A DNA stretch of 64,000 nucleotides, taken from the NCBI GenBank assembly GCA_900107185.1, contig FNPA01000013.1, forward strand, positions 1 to 64,000, given 5' to 3'. Of the stretch, positions 1-34,936 are shown piece after piece (position 1 is the stretch's first letter; each line of letters begins with the position of its first letter). A program made the position numbers and the translations under genes. The stretch comes from Ruminococcaceae bacterium YAD3003 (lineage in GTDB: Bacteria; Bacillota; Clostridia; Saccharofermentanales; Saccharofermentanaceae). Below the pieces are notes generated by a model, which worked only from the letters and a program-made list of their open reading frames with translations, ran no database searches and had not been told where the DNA came from.

Positions 1-245
1 TAGACAGGATGCATCTTAGAAATAGAATGCATCTTAAATCATTAATAATCGAAAATCAGGATGCATATCGAAATACTTATGCGACCTGATTAGATTATTT
101 TTAAAGAATAGGATGCATGCGAGAATGCAAATGCATCCTAAAGAGATATTTTTTCGAGATTAAGATGCATATATAAAATCAAATGCATCCTCAATTACAA
201 ATTTTCGCTAAATAGGATGCATCAGATAGTCTGAGAAAATCCAGA
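1..245. repeat. Periodic 52-bp inverted-repeat array 1 (truncated by window start)
   Basis: Left half-sites of form AGGATGCAT start at 6, 58, 110, 162 (AAGATGCAT) and 214. Right half-sites of form ATGCATCCT start at 27, 79 (degenerate, ATGCGACCT), 131 and 183. The period is exactly 52 bp and each pair is offset by exactly 21 bp, so a unit is 9 bp, 12-bp gap, 9 bp, 22-bp spacer. Gaps and spacers are AT-rich and poorly conserved, except for a TCGA-like tetramer about 5 bp left of most left half-sites (49-52, 154-157, 205-208). The array probably continues upstream of base 1. It lies directly 3' of the DUF3021 gene, whose stop codon is at 246-248. No coding potential is evident. The same layout recurs at 30411-30866. 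Confidence 0.9.
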
Positions 246-28278: not shown

Positions 28279-29359
28279 AGCGTACTTAAAAAGAGTATTG
28301 CTTTTCCTCCCTTATGTATTGTGCTATTTCCTGGCGCTCGGTATTGCCATGCTGTCTTTGGTTTTGTATGCGTCGGAATTCCTTTTCGAGGACAACACTG
28401 ACAGCATCGTATCAGTCGCCTGCTACGTTCCTGACGACAGCGCCTATAACCGTCTGGGAATCGGTATTGTCCAGCAGATGGACAGTGTAAAACACACGAT
28501 CGACATCAATATGGTCGACAAAAAATCAGAGGTTCTGGAACTGGTTGAAGACGGTGATGCCGTTGCGGGAATCATTATTCCAGAAGGCTTCATTGAATCG
28601 ATGGGAACACCTGATGCAAAGCAGGCTCAGATTATTTACCGCGACGCCGATACATACGAGGAACATATCGTAAACGATCTGATCTATGCAATGAGCGATC
28701 TCCTCGGAACAACGCAGTGCACGATCCTTACAGCAGGAGAACTCGCTGAAGAACTGGGCGCAGAAACCGGCGAAGTCTATGCGATCGAGAATGACGTCTC
28801 AAACAATCTTTTAGACTACATAATGAACCGTAAGACTCTTTTCCGCGCATTGGACATCGACGATCTCGTTGCAAAATATGCAGTAAGGGAGAGGCTTACA
28901 GCTTCTTATACTCTGTACATCATAATGATGTCCGTCTTCGTAATCTCGTTCTTCTATAAGGGAAATAATCCGATATTCAGAGCGAGAGCGAAGCTGTCAG
29001 GAATCAAGACATGGAAAATATTCCTTATTGAATCAGTCTGCACAGCGGCCATGATGTATCTTCTCTATGTTTTGATCTTCGTTGCGTTGAGTTTTGTTTT
29101 CGACACGGCGAAAATTCTGTCACTGCTCACGGTAATCCCCGTGATCCTTATCGTGGCTCTCATGGGCACCGCCCTCTGCTATATCGTTAAGAGTCCTGCG
29201 GCAGTCTCTTATATCATGTTCGGTGCCGGCACGAGCCTTATGTATCTTGCCGGCGGTCTTATCCCGCTAGATTACATGCCGAAGTTCTTCCAAACTGCGG
29301 CACACTATAACCCGCTCTACTATCTGATTCAGTTCTTTATGAGGTCTATGTTCCTATGA
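28271..29359 (+). CDS. ABC-2 type permease subunit 1
   Basis: This 362-residue protein has one N-terminal helix (about 10-33), an extracytoplasmic domain of about 180 residues, and five to six C-terminal helices (about 215-360). This is the ABC2_membrane_3/YhgE-like layout of exporters for peptides, drugs or lipids. It is paralogous in design to the next gene, and the pair probably forms a heterodimer. The substrate is unknown. Confidence 0.8.
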   Translation: MIKAYLKRVLLFLPYVLCYFLALGIAMLSLVLYASEFLFEDNTDSIVSVACYVPDDSAYNRLGIGIVQQMDSVKHTIDINMVDKKSEVLELVEDGDAVAGIIIPEGFIESMGTPDAKQAQIIYRDADTYEEHIVNDLIYAMSDLLGTTQCTILTAGELAEELGAETGEVYAIENDVSNNLLDYIMNRKTLFRALDIDDLVAKYAVRERLTASYTLYIIMMSVFVISFFYKGNNPIFRARAKLSGIKTWKIFLIESVCTAAMMYLLYVLIFVALSFVFDTAKILSLLTVIPVILIVALMGTALCYIVKSPAAVSYIMFGAGTSLMYLAGGLIPLDYMPKFFQTAAHYNPLYYLIQFFMRSMFL

Positions 29360-30393
29360 AGCTATTCTTAAACAGGTTACAGGTCCTCTCAAAGCGCAGT
29401 CTCATAAATCCTGCCATGTATGTCATGGCCGGAATAATCGTTCTTTTGGCACTGCTCGTTATTTTCGTGCCGGAGAAAGAAACATCGGCTTACATTCCCG
29501 TTGCGATCCTTAACGAAGATAATTCTCCTGAGTCAGAAGCAATCGTAGATGAGCTCTGCACGATGAATTCCGTATTCTCATTCTATGAAGTAGATGACGA
29601 AGAAGAACTCTACAAAGACATCGCCTCAGGCAAAGCAAACACGGCTTACATATTCCCCAAAAACTTCCTGGACCACCTGACCGAAAAGGGTTCCAAGTAC
29701 GATGTCAAACAGGTAGCAACACCTGCTTCGAGTTTCAAGTTCCTGTCCAGAGAGGAAGTTTTCGGAAGGTTCTTCGGATATGGAGCACGCCAGATAATCT
29801 CAGATACGATGGCTGAGTACGGATATGAAGTATCAGTCCACGATCCTGAGCTCATGAGACTCTACGGCAAATACATCGACGACCAGACACTCTTCGCGTT
29901 AGAGAGTGTTGAAGGAACTGTCTACAACGCAATTACACGTTCAGAGAAGATCCCGATCCCTCTGTATAAATTTGCGGGATTCTTTATCTTCACTGCTGCA
30001 CTTCTGGGCGCGCTCGCATTCTTAAATGACCAGGATAACCGCATATATTTAAGATTCAAGTTGTTCGAGCGTATTTATTTGGGCCTCATCCAGGTCGCTG
30101 TATTCACCATCCCTGCAGCATTCGTATCCATCATCTGCTTCCTCGTCTCGAGGACGGAATTTAAGATACTGCACGTGCTGTTATACACGCTCATCGTAAC
30201 TCTCATCGCATTCGTGGTCGGCACGGTAATGACTCTGCTGCCCATCCGCCAGGCGCGCTCAAAGATATTCTCATCCGTGCTCCCTGTTTACCTGATCCTC
30301 TCATTCCTGTTTAGCGGAATCCTGATGGATCTTACAAACTTCGGTCCTGCGTTGAGAACTCTGTCGAGATTGTTCCCGCCGTCGATGTTCTGA
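29356..30393 (+). CDS. ABC-2 type permease subunit 2
   Basis: This 345-residue protein has the same design as permease 1: one N-terminal helix, a roughly 160-residue outside domain and a C-terminal helix bundle. It overlaps permease 1 by 4 bp (ATGA). Its stop codon at 30391-30393 is followed 17 bp later by the first half-site of periodic array 2. Confidence 0.8.
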   Translation: MKLFLNRLQVLSKRSLINPAMYVMAGIIVLLALLVIFVPEKETSAYIPVAILNEDNSPESEAIVDELCTMNSVFSFYEVDDEEELYKDIASGKANTAYIFPKNFLDHLTEKGSKYDVKQVATPASSFKFLSREEVFGRFFGYGARQIISDTMAEYGYEVSVHDPELMRLYGKYIDDQTLFALESVEGTVYNAITRSEKIPIPLYKFAGFFIFTAALLGALAFLNDQDNRIYLRFKLFERIYLGLIQVAVFTIPAAFVSIICFLVSRTEFKILHVLLYTLIVTLIAFVVGTVMTLLPIRQARSKIFSSVLPVYLILSFLFSGILMDLTNFGPALRTLSRLFPPSMF

Positions 30394-30410
30394 GTATTAA
30401 AACCTGAATA

Positions 30411-30866
30411 ATGTATTCCGATTTTGGAGAATCTTAAAGTGCGAATACGCTATCTGCGAAAAATGTATTCGCGTTTTTAATTTTTTTGATTTGAGAATAC
30501 AAAATTTCCTGGATTTGTATTCCAATTCGCGAAAAATCTTAATTGCGAATACATGGCTGGCAAAAAATGTATTCCAATTTTTGAAAATCCACAAACTCGA
30601 ATACAAAATCGTTGAAAAACGTATTCCAAATCTCGAAATATCGTAATTTCGAATATATATTTTGAGATAAATGTATTCCAATTCTCGAAAACACAGAAAA
30701 GCGAATACAAATTCTTCCAAAAATGTATTCCTACTTTCGAGAATTCAAAAAAGAGAATACAAAAACGTCTGGATCTGTATTCCTACTTTCGAGAATTCAA
30801 AAAAGCGAATACAAAATAATCCAAATTCTTATTCGCAATCAGGTAAATCTCAAAAGAAGAATATAT
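30411..30866. repeat. Periodic 52-bp inverted-repeat array 2
   Basis: Core TGTATTC half-sites start at 30412, 30464, 30516, 30568, 30620 (CGTATTC), 30672, 30724, 30776 and 30828 (CTTATTC). Core GAATACA half-sites start at 30443, 30495, 30547, 30599, 30651 (GAATATA), 30703, 30755, 30807 and 30859 (GAATATA). Both series have a period of exactly 52 bp, with a 21-bp offset from GAATACA to TGTATTC and 31 bp to the next unit. In the 22-bp spacer a TCGA-like tetramer starts 5 bp after the right half-site; it reads TCGA at 30633, 30685, 30737 and 30789. Gaps and other spacer bases vary. The period is not a multiple of three, so the conserved pattern is not protein coding. Confidence 0.95.
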
Positions 30867-30924
30867 TTAGTCTCAACTTTCTCCAAAAATGCATACTTTT
30901 TCATAACACCTCTCTATAATCCAA

Positions 30925-30941
30925 GCAGGAGGTAGTCCTGC
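30925..30941 (+). promoter_or_regulatory. Hairpin sequestering the ribosome site of the nuclease-like gene
   Basis: GCAGGA-GGTAG-TCCTGC is a perfect 6-bp stem ending on the base before the ATG at 30942. The AGGAGG Shine-Dalgarno lies in its 5' arm and loop. This would limit translation initiation unless the hairpin is opened. Confidence 0.65.
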
Positions 30942-31733
30942 ATGAACATTAATTTGAAAAGCGATATAAGTGCAAGAAGTGATTTAATCTCTTCTCTGAT
31001 AAATCCGGTAGAAAAGAAACTGGAGAAACTGCCTGCCGGAAGACTGAAGATATGCCATCACGGGAATAAAACCTACTATTACTATTGTGAAAACAGCAAC
31101 AGTTCACCCATACTTCTTGACCGCAATGATGCAAAACTGATTGCGGACCTTGCTCAGAGAAGCTACCTGGAGAAAGTCCTTAAAGTGTCTAAAAAGGAAG
31201 TCTCTGCTCTGAATCACGCGTTGAAATCTTTCCCCGAATATGTTGCAGAAGAAATCTACGACAACTTAAACGAGGAACGGAAGAAAATAGTAAAGCCAAT
31301 AACAATTTCCGATGAGCAATTCATAAAAGAATGGCTGGAAAAACCTTATGCTCATAAATCTTTCAATGAAGGACAACAGGTTTTTTATACAGCGCGCGGA
31401 GAAACAGTAAGATCCAAATCAGAGGTGATAATTGCCGACAGACTATTTGCTAATGGTATTCCATACAAATATGAATGCCCGATAAAAATCGGAAAAATAA
31501 CTATCCATCCCGATTTCACTATACTCAGAATCAGCGACAGGAAAATAATGTATTGGGAGCATAATGGAAAAATGGGAGACCCTGATTATGTTGAAAAAAT
31601 GGTGAACAGAATAAATCTTTATAATCAGGCAGAGATCTTCCAGGGAGATAATCTGTTTCTTACATTCGAATCTGAAAAGACACCATTCGATATAAAAACT
31701 CTCGATAACATAATCAACAGGTTTTTCAAATAA
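30942..31733 (+). CDS. PD-(D/E)XK nuclease-like protein, unknown role
   Basis: This 263-residue cytosolic protein has a C-terminal half with a restriction-endonuclease-like pattern: RSKSEVIIADRL (E161), a beta-hairpin region KYECPIKIGKITIHPDF (D191) and YWEHNGK (E206, K210). These fit an E...PD...ExxxK layout known from nuclease-fold domains in Firmicutes. The N-terminal half (1-130) is helical and charged with no family I know. It is downstream of periodic array 2, begins with a hairpin over its ribosome site and has its own terminator. It is AT-richer than its neighbours, which hints at transfer. Nuclease activity is inferred from motifs only. Confidence 0.6.
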   Translation: MNINLKSDISARSDLISSLINPVEKKLEKLPAGRLKICHHGNKTYYYYCENSNSSPILLDRNDAKLIADLAQRSYLEKVLKVSKKEVSALNHALKSFPEYVAEEIYDNLNEERKKIVKPITISDEQFIKEWLEKPYAHKSFNEGQQVFYTARGETVRSKSEVIIADRLFANGIPYKYECPIKIGKITIHPDFTILRISDRKIMYWEHNGKMGDPDYVEKMVNRINLYNQAEIFQGDNLFLTFESEKTPFDIKTLDNIINRFFK

Positions 31734-31734
31734 A

Positions 31735-31768
31735 AAGGCTGTGCCACCAGAGCACAGCCTTAATTATT
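31735..31768. terminator. Bidirectional terminator
   Basis: AAGGCTGTGC...GCACAGCCTT forms a 10-bp stem with loop CACCAGA. It separates the convergent nuclease-like gene and the acidic lipoprotein gene, and is flanked by AT-rich runs on both sides. Confidence 0.85.
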
Positions 31769-31789
31769 GATTTGAATTCAGATCAAAGA

Positions 31790-32713
31790 TCAGATATCCC
31801 AATCCTCATCGTCGTAATCGTCATCATAATCGTCGTAATCATCAACAAAAGCTGAAGAACCGAGCAACTTGTTGCCGTAGTTGTCGATAGCATCTTCAAC
31901 TGCTTCTTCAACAACGTCCTGGTTCATAGGAACCTTTGTAGGGTTGTTAGCAGCACCGAAAGCACTTACGAATGAGCCGAGTGTAGAAGCCTTCTGGTTG
32001 AGTGAACCGCCAACGAGAACGAAAATGTTAGTACCGTTGATCTCAACAGAAACTGCTACGTCACCCTTAAGACCTGAGAGAACCTCTTCGAAGTCGTCAG
32101 CATCTGAATACATGTCAACGAGATCCATGATGTCGTCATTCTCGAGGATAACCTTAGCGAGCTTAGAAACTTCAACGTGGAATCTGAAGTAACCGTCGTT
32201 CTTACCAACATAGAACTCTTTGTTTGTAAGATCCTTTGAACTGATGCCTGCCATGTCGAGCATATCATCAAGGTAATCCATAAAGTCTCCGGCATATCCG
32301 TCATCAGCGAGTGAAACCTGGAAAGCCATAGCGCCGTCGATCTGGAGGTCAGCAATATCTTCGATATCACTAATATCCTCGATATCTCCTAAACCTGTGC
32401 ACTTAGCAGCAAGAGCAAAGGAAGTAACATCATCTGCATCGATGATCTCAGACAGACCCATATCCTGGAGCATGCCTTCAACATCAACATCGCCATCCTC
32501 AACTGCTTCTTCATCTGCTACAGCATAGAAACCGTCTTCGAGGTCATCCATATCCGGTGCATCATCATCAATATCAAATTCCTCGAGCTTAAGTCTCTCA
32601 CATGCCTTAGCGAACTTCTCTGTTGTAATCTTTGTTGTCTTGCTGCATCCGGCAAAAATACCAACGAGCATAACAGCAGAAAGCACGCATGCAATAGCCT
32701 TTATTTTTTTCAT
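31790..32713 (-). CDS. Acidic lipoprotein, paralogous to the N-terminal domain of the next gene
   Basis: This 307-residue lipoprotein has a signal ending GIFAGC (Cys about residue 22). The mature domain is acidic and ends in a run of Asp, Tyr and Glu. It aligns along most of its length with residues 20-300 of the 32900-34828 protein (both begin CSKT, then TEKF and LEEF, later NKEFY/DKEFY, LSGLKGD/LSGLTGD and VPMN/LPMN). No known family is recognised. AAGGAGGG precedes the ATG at 32713. Confidence 0.65.
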   Translation of the reverse strand: MKKIKAIACVLSAVMLVGIFAGCSKTTKITTEKFAKACERLKLEEFDIDDDAPDMDDLEDGFYAVADEEAVEDGDVDVEGMLQDMGLSEIIDADDVTSFALAAKCTGLGDIEDISDIEDIADLQIDGAMAFQVSLADDGYAGDFMDYLDDMLDMAGISSKDLTNKEFYVGKNDGYFRFHVEVSKLAKVILENDDIMDLVDMYSDADDFEEVLSGLKGDVAVSVEINGTNIFVLVGGSLNQKASTLGSFVSAFGAANNPTKVPMNQDVVEEAVEDAIDNYGNKLLGSSAFVDDYDDYDDDYDDEDWDI

Positions 32714-32899
32714 AAAGCAAAAACCCTCCTTCTGGGAATAAAAGAATAATACCACAAAATCACTTTAATTTGACTTGTTCTGAAAATATAAATAATACCC
32801 ATTGTTTGAGGCTCTGATATCTGTCTTTGCGACATTTTCACCTAAAACAAAGGGTATTATCTGAAATCCTACTTTCGGGCAGGGATACAGACTCTATGG

Positions 32900-34828
32900 T
32901 CAGATGAAATCTGTCTCACTATAGTATCCGCTGTCGACAAGGATGGTCTTATAGTTGTTCTCATCTACGAAAATCGGAGAGCAGAGGTATGACGGAACTG
33001 TCTTGACTCCGTTGTTATGAGTTGAGTTGTCATTGACATCAACCACTTCACCTTCTGCAATCTGCATGACCATTTTCGCCGTCTGGTCAACCAAAGTGCG
33101 GGTATCCTTAAATACAGACATGGCCTGTTTGCCGGCAATGATGCTCTTAACGTTAACCAGGTCACAATCCTGGCCTGTAATTATCGGATAAGTTCCTTTG
33201 TAATTTCTACTCTCGAGAGCCTGTATTACGCCCCAGGCTGTTGAGTCATTGGAGCAGAGCCATGCATCTATATCCGTACCGTCTGAATAATATGAACTGA
33301 TGATGTTCTCGGCACGGGCCTTGGCCTGATCAGTTTTCCAGCCGCTGGTGGCAACATCTTCAAATGCTGTCTGGCCGGAAACAACCTTGATCTGACCTGA
33401 TGCAATATACGGGCTCAGCACATCGTAAGCACCGTTGTAGAAAAGCCGTGCGTTAAAATCTGACGGATCGCCTGCCGTGAGCTCGATGTTGAACGGTCCG
33501 CGGTTATTTTCGATATCCAATGCGTTGATAATGTACGTAGCCTGCAAAACACCGACCGTGTAGTTGTCAAATGATACGTAGTAATCAACACATTCCGTCG
33601 CCATGATCAGGCGGTCGTAAGCAATAACTTTGACGCCCTTTGCAGCTGCTTCCTCGAGAACTGTTGTCAAAGACGAACCATCTATGGCGGCAATTACGAG
33701 GATCTTGCAGCCACTGTTTATCATGTTCTCGATCTGGGCGACCTGAGTGTTAATCGTGTTGCCAGCATACTGGAGATCAACAGTGTAGCCGTTCTCCTCG
33801 AGCTGTTCCTTAAGGTTCGACCCGTCCTGGTACCATCTCATGAGATCCTGTGTAGGCATTGAGATTCCGACCTTGAAACCGGAATCGCCATTGATATCAA
33901 CGTCAACAGAACCGCCATCAATGTCTACGTCACCGCCATCATCAATAATGTCACCACTTGCTATGTTTGTGATCACATATGCATTGATAGCCAAACCTGC
34001 TTCCTCAACAGCAGTCTCAGCAACCGTTTCATTCATGGGAAGTTTCAGAGGATCATAAGCCACACCAAATCTTTTTATGAAATCCTTCAGTGTATCCGCG
34101 TCCCGGTTAAGAGAGAAACCTGCAACGACTAAAACGTTGGCACCATTCACTTCAACGGACAAAGCGATGTCGCCCGTAAGCCCGCTTAACAGATCTTCCA
34201 TATCTTCGTTGAGTGTGAGTTCTGCATATTCATCCAGATTATCATTGTCGATAACCATCTCGGCGAAATCAGCGACGTTGATATGAAGTCTTAAGTAACC
34301 CTCTTTGGGGGATGAATAGAATTCTTTATCAGACAGATCATCGGTGCTGATATCGTATTTGTCGAGCAGTTCGGTGAAATAGCTCATGATGTCTTCTGAG
34401 TAGTTGTCATCAAGAGTCATCTGGAATGCAACGGCTCCGTCAACTTCCAGGTCTTCTAATTCCTTCGGGTCTGCTCTCTTGAGATCCTTGTAACCATCGA
34501 CCCTTGCAGCGAAGCCAACAGACTCTACATCGTCGGGATCGATGAAGTCGACGATACCAATAAGAGAAGCGATATCATCTATGCCGTGTCTGAACTGAGG
34601 TCCGATAAGTTCTTCGGCTTCATCACCATCTGCAGCTATGTAATAACCTTTTTCAACATCTCTCGGTTTGGGCATTTCGCCGTCGATCTCGAACTCCTCG
34701 AGGCCCATCTTCTCGCATATCTTCGTGAACTTTTCTGTAGAGATGTTTGCTGTCTTGCTGCACCCGGCGAAAACACCGGCCAGCATAGAAACTGCCAATA
34801 CAGTTGCTGCTATCTTTATTCTTCTCAT
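32900..34828 (-). CDS. Lipoprotein fusing an acidic domain to a CUT2-type sugar-binding domain
   Basis: This 642-residue protein has a lipoprotein signal ending GVFAGC. An N-terminal domain (about 25-305) is homologous to the 31790-32713 lipoprotein. A short linker and a complete periplasmic-binding domain of the ChvE/ribose-binding type follow (about 315-642), starting KVGISMPTQDLMRWYQDG and including AQIENMINSGCKILVIAAIDG and YPIITGQDCDLVNVKSI. Such proteins bind monosaccharides for ABC import or chemotaxis, but no permease or ATPase gene adjoins it. The ATG at 34828 follows GGGGG at 8 bp; in-frame ATGs upstream lack spacing. Confidence 0.85.
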   Translation of the reverse strand: MRRIKIAATVLAVSMLAGVFAGCSKTANISTEKFTKICEKMGLEEFEIDGEMPKPRDVEKGYYIAADGDEAEELIGPQFRHGIDDIASLIGIVDFIDPDDVESVGFAARVDGYKDLKRADPKELEDLEVDGAVAFQMTLDDNYSEDIMSYFTELLDKYDISTDDLSDKEFYSSPKEGYLRLHINVADFAEMVIDNDNLDEYAELTLNEDMEDLLSGLTGDIALSVEVNGANVLVVAGFSLNRDADTLKDFIKRFGVAYDPLKLPMNETVAETAVEEAGLAINAYVITNIASGDIIDDGGDVDIDGGSVDVDINGDSGFKVGISMPTQDLMRWYQDGSNLKEQLEENGYTVDLQYAGNTINTQVAQIENMINSGCKILVIAAIDGSSLTTVLEEAAAKGVKVIAYDRLIMATECVDYYVSFDNYTVGVLQATYIINALDIENNRGPFNIELTAGDPSDFNARLFYNGAYDVLSPYIASGQIKVVSGQTAFEDVATSGWKTDQAKARAENIISSYYSDGTDIDAWLCSNDSTAWGVIQALESRNYKGTYPIITGQDCDLVNVKSIIAGKQAMSVFKDTRTLVDQTAKMVMQIAEGEVVDVNDNSTHNNGVKTVPSYLCSPIFVDENNYKTILVDSGYYSETDFI

Positions 34829-34936
34829 AAGCATTACCCCCTTATGCATCCGCCGTAATTTTAGCATATAATCATATATCTTTGACTTGCCCTAAATTAA
34901 ACAAGTATTTATTATCTGTGCGAGGGGGTGTTTTAT

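Follow-up and report, generated by a model that had tools for sequence, protein, structure and literature searches.

What holds short inverted words at an exact 52-bp period between the genes of a clostridial bacterium, and does a particular gene go with them? The question is raised by positions 30412 to 30865 of the window, the 64,000-nucleotide stretch of Ruminococcaceae bacterium YAD3003 DNA analysed here (contig FNPA01000013.1, positions 1 to 64,000). The reading favoured below, to which we give a probability of just under 0.6, is that of a two-part system resembling REP elements and their RAYT proteins, in which the array is paired with a family of small predicted PDDEXK proteins, one member being encoded directly downstream.

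Structure of the Array and Its Surroundings

The array (30412-30865, assigned to neither strand) consists of nine units of the form TGTATTC-N24-GAATACA followed by N14, with unit starts at 30412, 30464, 30516, 30568, 30620, 30672, 30724, 30776, and 30828. All eight steps are exactly 52 bp. The 14 core bases are complete in six units, and the remaining three units retain 13, 12, and 11 of 14; the last unit reads CTTATTC/GAATATA. Eight units with at least 12 of 14 core bases were found in 480 bp, compared with a maximum of one in shuffled sequence (n = 2000), in full agreement with the original prediction of a nine-unit inverted-repeat array of exact 52-bp period. A search of the whole genome with TGTATTC-N20..28-GAATACA returned 25 exact forward matches (two of them one array seen at overlapping contig ends), every one with the N24 spacing, and the reversed control returned none.

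The array had also been predicted to be neither a CRISPR locus nor a simple tandem duplication. The first distinction held, as the arms are inverted and alternate, unlike the constant direct repeats of CRISPR; no Cas genes were noticed by eye among the flanking ORFs. The second held in part. The 24-bp interiors of the units at 30724 and 30776 are nearly identical, showing that arrays expand by tandem duplication, with later divergence outside the arms.

An ABC-2 permease gene (29356-30393, forward strand) ends 18 bp before the array, and the order permease-array-nuclease is repeated in another species (G023, locus L098), where the arms are TGTAATC/TGTATTC. Between the array and the gene that follows lies an AGTCTCA element (30869-30875, forward strand). 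Of 70 genes of the family described below, 40 have this heptamer in the 200 bp upstream and none has it in the 200 bp downstream; it is perhaps a shared regulator or promoter element. At several family loci, AGTCTCA is found near GAGAC-N2-GTCTC. The TATAAT at 30915-30920 (forward strand) is, judged from the sequence, the likely -10 box of the nuclease gene, in which case the array would sit upstream of that gene's promoter. Further downstream, two lipoprotein-like ORFs (31790-32755 and 32900-34867) have N-terminal halves that appear similar by eye; the later part of the second resembles a sugar-binding protein.

The window contains a second array, which was overlooked in the original prediction. 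It stands alone at the contig start (28-235, assigned to neither strand) and has four units with TGCATCC arms, a word that is also that of a PDDEXK paralogue at contig 11:84061-84846.

The Linked Protein

The array is followed, after 76 bp, by a forward-strand gene (30942-31733) for a 263-residue protein with a predicted helical-hairpin N terminus carrying a three-strand insert and a predicted C-terminal PDDEXK (TnsA-like) domain. The AlphaFold2 model (mean pLDDT 92.2, pTM 0.64) places the helical hairpin at residues 5-28 and 61-96, with a small sheet, and an alpha/beta domain from about residue 147. The best structural alignment of the C-domain was with TnsA (1f1z; Z 8.7, rmsd 3.1, 114 residues), followed by Bax1, VRR_NUC, Hjc, and others, and it should be noted that Z values above 8 were also given by helical matches to the N terminus. 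Foldseek returned no match to the model at E ≤ 0.001, no convincing family was found in Pfam, NCBIfam, or PHROG, and a sequence search of solved structures gave nothing below E 0.3. The predicted C-domain fold is like that of TnsA from Tn7, but the N terminus is different; neither TnsB/TnsC nor a transposase was noticed by eye among the flanking ORFs. The C-terminal part of the PADLOC candidate PDC-S68 matched 29 of 29 members of the family (best value 3.6e-28), consistent with a similar nuclease domain, but PDC-S68 models are 1202-1273 positions long.

In the 29 relatives aligned, residues E161, D191, and E206 are invariant. The ExK lysine is absent from its usual place in the family (E-H-x-G), so catalysis is uncertain; nuclease activity is a plausible prediction. 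The window genome holds 13 matches to the gene, itself included, some of them confined to the C-terminal part, and 84 of the 85 genus genomes gave a match at E ≤ 0.001. Four viral relatives (L156-L159) match through the C termini of frames of about 1130 residues, with no arrays near the match in any of the four.

Arrays Upstream of PDDEXK-Family Genes

The linked gene was at first set aside, as it lies beside only one of seven arrays that share the TGTATTC word (family A), and a motif-free scan of its paralogues reversed that judgement. A motif-blind score for inverted arms at 52 bp located arrays directly upstream of paralogues with the words TGCATCC (L017), GTGTAGTTTT (L018), and TTTACCCC (L019). 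Among 68 genus loci with both flanks, which were selected for best match to the window gene and not at random, a score of at least 19 was reached upstream at 23 and downstream at one (Wilcoxon p = 3.6e-10). The other 45 have no upstream array at this threshold, some weaker arrays being visible. The loci on which the idea was formed gave 17 of 36 upstream and one of 36 downstream. Those fetched afterwards gave a lower share, six of 32 upstream, and none of 32 downstream (Fisher 5.6e-5 and Wilcoxon 5.9e-5 against 121 controls). The controls, defined by length as ORFs of at least 120 residues and not by annotation, in 200 kb from five congeners, reached the score upstream in none of 121 cases (Fisher 3.7e-12 against all 68 loci). 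Within the window, one of 59 ORFs did so, namely the 263-residue gene. When periods of 40-65 were scanned blind, the score peaked at 52 (gain 4.0), followed by 51 (3.5), with all others at or below 2.32.

The control stretches do hold some arrays: when they are cut into 320 tiles (600 bp each), one tile attains a score of 19, and TRF reports seven rows of period 38-100 in five of 20 stretches. These include a 74-bp array with TTACCGACTAAA arms (L229, 570-760) and a 52-bp array with TTTTAGAGAA arms (L231, 560-900), both in genome G107, and a 52-bp repeat with TTAGTACGTAA in G005 (L221, 6400-6560).

Across the genomes compared, arrays stand upstream of PDDEXK-family genes far more often than of other genes. 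The original prediction had proposed counting loci and looking for a linked gene, and that search led to the PDDEXK-like family.

A Second Bacterial Family

A further family of the class (f7) gave matches to the gene at 1e-25 in 61 of 200 genomes, in some cases through the C-terminal part alone. A TRF array of period 38-100 was present within 1 kb upstream at 24 of 38 loci and downstream at four of 38, a downstream count that leaves out the L143 array (75 bp), which lies partly beyond 1 kb. Some loci, for example L140, have arrays on both sides. The upstream periods were 51-54 (12 loci), 61-62 (five), 73-75 (four), 83 (one), 45 (one), and 39 (one), and an inverted 7-mer pair was present in the consensus unit at 20 of these 24 loci and absent at four. 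At one f7 locus (L141), a 17-bp tandem repeat, unlike the inverted-arm arrays, flanks the PDDEXK gene on both sides.

The steps of about 10.5 bp between f7 periods are only suggestive of helical phasing: a quantisation test gave 25 of 20000 if the loci are taken as independent (all ten longer arrays) and 3059 of 20000 on distinct values. Selection on geometry, as originally proposed, is the best fit to the period peak at 52 in the genus and to the f7 periods near 52, 62, 74, and 83, the latter being statistically only suggestive.

Half-Sites Kept as Sequence

TGTATTC words occur at six further places in the genome: contig 29:64397, 10:52418, 10:82802, 11:158284, 15:14445, and one array split over contigs 10 and 24, the join of the two contig ends being inferred. 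All seven family-A arrays occupy gaps between long ORFs, each adjoining at least one ORF 3' end, and four of the seven lie between convergent ORFs (counting the inferred contig 10/24 join). Of 46 steps in family A, 43 are exactly 52 bp and the other three are 51 or 53. In an alignment of its 54 units, the 14 core positions average 1.75 bits and the other positions 0.55 bits. Arms extend to ∼12 bp in several relatives, giving a unit of 12-14-12-14 in which arm direction flips every 26 bp. Exact-pattern matches in Mediterraneibacter (L078) and a gammaproteobacterium (L079) were dismissed as chance, the motif-free scan having given nothing there, and a viral candidate (L096) was set aside as a short AT-rich repeat.

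Family A contains 39 deviating core pairs, of which one is compensated, and GU pairs (13) are no commoner than AC pairs (17). Pairing therefore does not keep the arms within the genome. Each half-site is kept as sequence in its own right, which favours DNA read by a protein over RNA hairpins. Two mechanisms in the original prediction fare accordingly: a repeated RNA fold is disfavoured, and of the polymerising DNA-binding protein, the idea of a protein that reads the half-sites fits the uncompensated core deviations best, polymerisation being conjecture.

Arm words vary between species and between loci, and three dispersed families are present in the window genome alone. At one locus common to nine species (A3), whose orthology was judged by eye from shared upstream sequence, the arms have changed in concert, with covariation of 0.42-0.46 compared with 0.18-0.19 after shuffling. 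The central spacer at A3 consists of an A-tract, about five bases, and a T-tract, and the two-unit arrays found there have kept their symmetry about it. In the species compared, arm words change together and the 52-bp geometry stays. Such concerted change is expected if the recognising protein changes.

Covariation of the arms between species could also be claimed for an array that acts once transcribed, as a small RNA, a terminator, or an RNA antitoxin. Type III toxin-antitoxin loci do have tandem repeats directly before a nuclease-like gene, and the present array likewise precedes its gene. Unlike type III loci, the arrays described here are dispersed with the same word, are conserved in a DNA-like manner, and probably have a promoter between array and gene; no ToxN family was found among the matches of the PDDEXK protein. 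An RNA-level role could also draw on the transcription of 52-nt repeats reported for Bacillus coagulans in the accessible part of one study (PMC8625621). It is hard to square with the single compensated pair among 39, the lack of preference for GU over AC, and the position of the likely promoter, and an Rfam search of 29000-32000 returned no family at cut-off. We regard an RNA-level explanation as improbable.

Words Common to Genes and Stand-alone Arrays

Each of the 12 stand-alone arrays found in the window genome has a word that also occurs in one of three arrays linked to genes: TGTATTC (family A, six arrays), TGCATCC (family B, two, including window 28-235), and TTTACCCC (family C, four). 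The six family-A arrays were found with the window-gene word, so that their match to it is built in; the remaining six were detected by the motif-free scan (window 28) or by a covariance model, R1, the training of which drew partly on families A and B, and arrays with distant words may be missed. For 26 stand-alone arrays, the mean best arm match within the same genome was 7.35 of 8, compared with 6.27 (sd 0.25) under permuted labels, and none of 2000 permutations reached as high. The best same-genome match was 8 of 8 in 17 arrays, at least 7 in three more, and below 7 in six, the last being two each in G074 and G107 and one each in G023 and G027 when set against sampled genes of their own genome. 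The own genome was strictly the best match for 11 of the 26, ties being partly with sister species. In G092, the stand-alone word TGTATGTCAAA is present at one of three sampled gene loci, the gene array having been fetched after the stand-alone arrays were seen. Gene-linked and stand-alone arrays of one genome, as compared here, often have a common word.

Similarity of protein and similarity of arm were correlated (Mantel r = 0.36, 0 of 5000 permutations as high), with r falling to 0.20 when pairs above 70% identity were left out. The proteins of L112 and L114 are 83% identical and their words differ. The arms of L127, L136, L197, L207, L274, L278, L282, and L284 were typed by hand from the sequences. 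In three species, the proteins of L020, L197, and L207 are 97-98% identical and share the same array word, in a set where 322 of 378 pairs fall below 55%; recent horizontal transfer is possible for these loci.

The words also bear on whether the array is a nucleoid or insulator element read by some other, unlinked protein, with the PDDEXK gene as passenger. Constant geometry would suit such a role, as would the intergenic sites, with four of seven family-A arrays between convergent genes, and a polymerising protein has been proposed by Subirana and Messeguer in the accessible part of their report (PMC8161180), as it was in the original prediction. A passenger gene would not be expected to stand downstream of arrays in two bacterial families, nor to share words with the stand-alone arrays, and the presence of several words side by side in one genome also speaks against it. 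This explanation seems to us quite unlikely.

Copying of Whole Arrays

In G092, two inverted array copies are 95.4% identical over 196 bp, a similarity whose limits fall no more than 2 bp from those of the arrays; none was found in the 400-bp flanks. Family-C array pairs of the window genome are 74.9% (247 bp) and 76.7% (249 bp) identical, and here too the similarity stops at the ends of the arrays or close to them. A search with model R1, which leans to TGTA arms, gave some match in 28 of 85 genomes and revealed a burst of copies in G092. Correlation with absence of the gene is weak: G078, the sole genome of the 85 without a gene match, has no R1 match, and neither have 56 others. Each of the 20 further G092 copies measures 193 bp, has eight half-sites, and shares 76.9-80.5% identity with the array at the gene; three of them are no more than about 200 bp from the end of a contig and might be overlaps. 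Copies G064 C28 and C60 probably represent a single locus seen at two contig ends and were left out of the copying count. Whole multi-unit arrays, as the aligned copies indicate, have been copied to new places as cassettes.

The left flanks of the G092 copies are made of several modules and switch exactly at the first half-site, and the right flanks of many are common for some 43 bp. These loci (L334-L353 and L097) are mosaic dispersed repeats of exchangeable modules, the array being one module. Because the G092 arrays are embedded in these larger mosaics, some copies may have been carried passively. Inspection by eye revealed no target-site duplication at the array copies, and no clean empty site was found. 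An empty-site test at the nspC 3' site, where the array score is at least 19 in five of 30 loci, failed, as leuS was beside nspC in none of 29 other loci.

Mosaic repeats of this kind, together with visible recent tandem duplications and the several arrays found at contig ends, could be taken to indicate a neutral satellite produced by slippage and recombination with no partner. Cores at 1.75 bits against 0.55 elsewhere speak against this, as does the association of arrays with a single gene family in both bacterial families, and a neutral origin is very improbable.

The copies have a bearing, too, on the view that the array serves as an operator for autoregulation, lying before the promoter, with stand-alone arrays titrating or recruiting the protein and mobility incidental. 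The position of the array before AGTCTCA and TATAAT, here and at many relatives, would suit such an operator, as would the symmetric two-unit arrays at A3. Nine units far exceed the need, however, stand-alone family-A arrays adjoin gene 3' ends, with four of the seven arrays of the family between convergent genes, and about 20 copies in one genome (G092) count against it as well. We consider the operator reading unlikely.

Relation to Known Repeats and Proposed Mechanism

The array had been called undescribed, and this must be withdrawn. Subirana and Messeguer have described, in Bacillus and some other Firmicutes, noncoding 52-nt repeats of constant size and variable, species-specific sequence, with a period of 52 (51-53), mostly 4-10 units, several families per genome, and short conserved words often found together with their reverse in one repeat; in the accessible part of that report, no protein is known for them and their function is unknown, a polymerising protein or small RNAs being discussed (PMC8161180). 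The arrays described here are likewise noncoding, have a 52-bp (51-53) period, species-specific words, and several families, and carry a word and its reverse in each unit. By descriptive criteria the window array is a member of the published class. The present arrays come from one genus of Clostridia and from another family in that class, and the match to the Bacillus repeats is one of description, on the accessible part of the source; a plasmid search returned eight records, none of Bacillus. Unlike the published repeats as described there, the present arrays have a candidate partner gene, 12-14-12-14 arms, words common to gene-linked arrays and stand-alone ones, and cassette copying. The open-access literature searched yielded no pertinent report of a nuclease linked to such repeats, and as far as that literature shows, the partner gene, the shared words, and the cassette copying are new.

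A close parallel is with REP/BIME elements and RAYT (TnpA-REP) proteins, in which, according to the accessible part of the source, an enzyme gene lies beside its own repeats, sites alternate with regular spacing, and extragenic copies, cognate words, and co-evolution are found (PMC2817692). The PDDEXK gene similarly adjoins repeats of the same word as dispersed copies (a match of at least 7 of 8 for 20 of the 26 stand-alone arrays). The predicted PDDEXK fold differs from the IS200/IS605-type tyrosine (HUH) transposase of RAYT, the half-sites are spread over a 52-bp unit instead of forming compact palindromes, and the repeats lie mostly on one side of the gene (downstream at one of 68 loci in the genus). 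The PDDEXK-array system would on this comparison work like REP/RAYT and is no member of it, given the difference in modelled enzyme fold.

The mechanism that we propose is as follows. A protein, most simply the linked one, would bind half-sites spaced 21 and 31 bp, or two and three turns, apart on a single helical face, and would read their sequence and no hairpin. The nuclease, alone or with host repair, may then copy or maintain arrays between genes, frequently past the end of a gene, a form of spread or renewal that can be likened to the action on REP/BIME elements attributed to RAYT transposases in the accessible part of the report cited above (PMC2817692). A host role in nucleoid packing or in insulation between genes could be added. 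Binding, cutting, and mobilisation by the PDDEXK protein are what we infer from this pattern.

A wider reading is tentative and, on balance, doubtful. It would make the PDDEXK proteins and their arrays an undescribed class of element, each protein with its own helix-phased array, spreading in trans through clostridial genomes and co-evolving with the arm words, and would make these proteins the missing partner of the Firmicutes 52-nt repeats (perhaps also of 20-21-nt repeats, at two turns).

The 52-nt repeats have so far been defined by constant size, with no conserved sequence, function, or known protein, and a candidate partner family can now be put beside them. If the two-part reading is true, the family would be a PDDEXK-based counterpart to REP/RAYT, and it would provide a rare case in which protein-DNA specificity has diversified several times within one genome, with the target words beside each gene.
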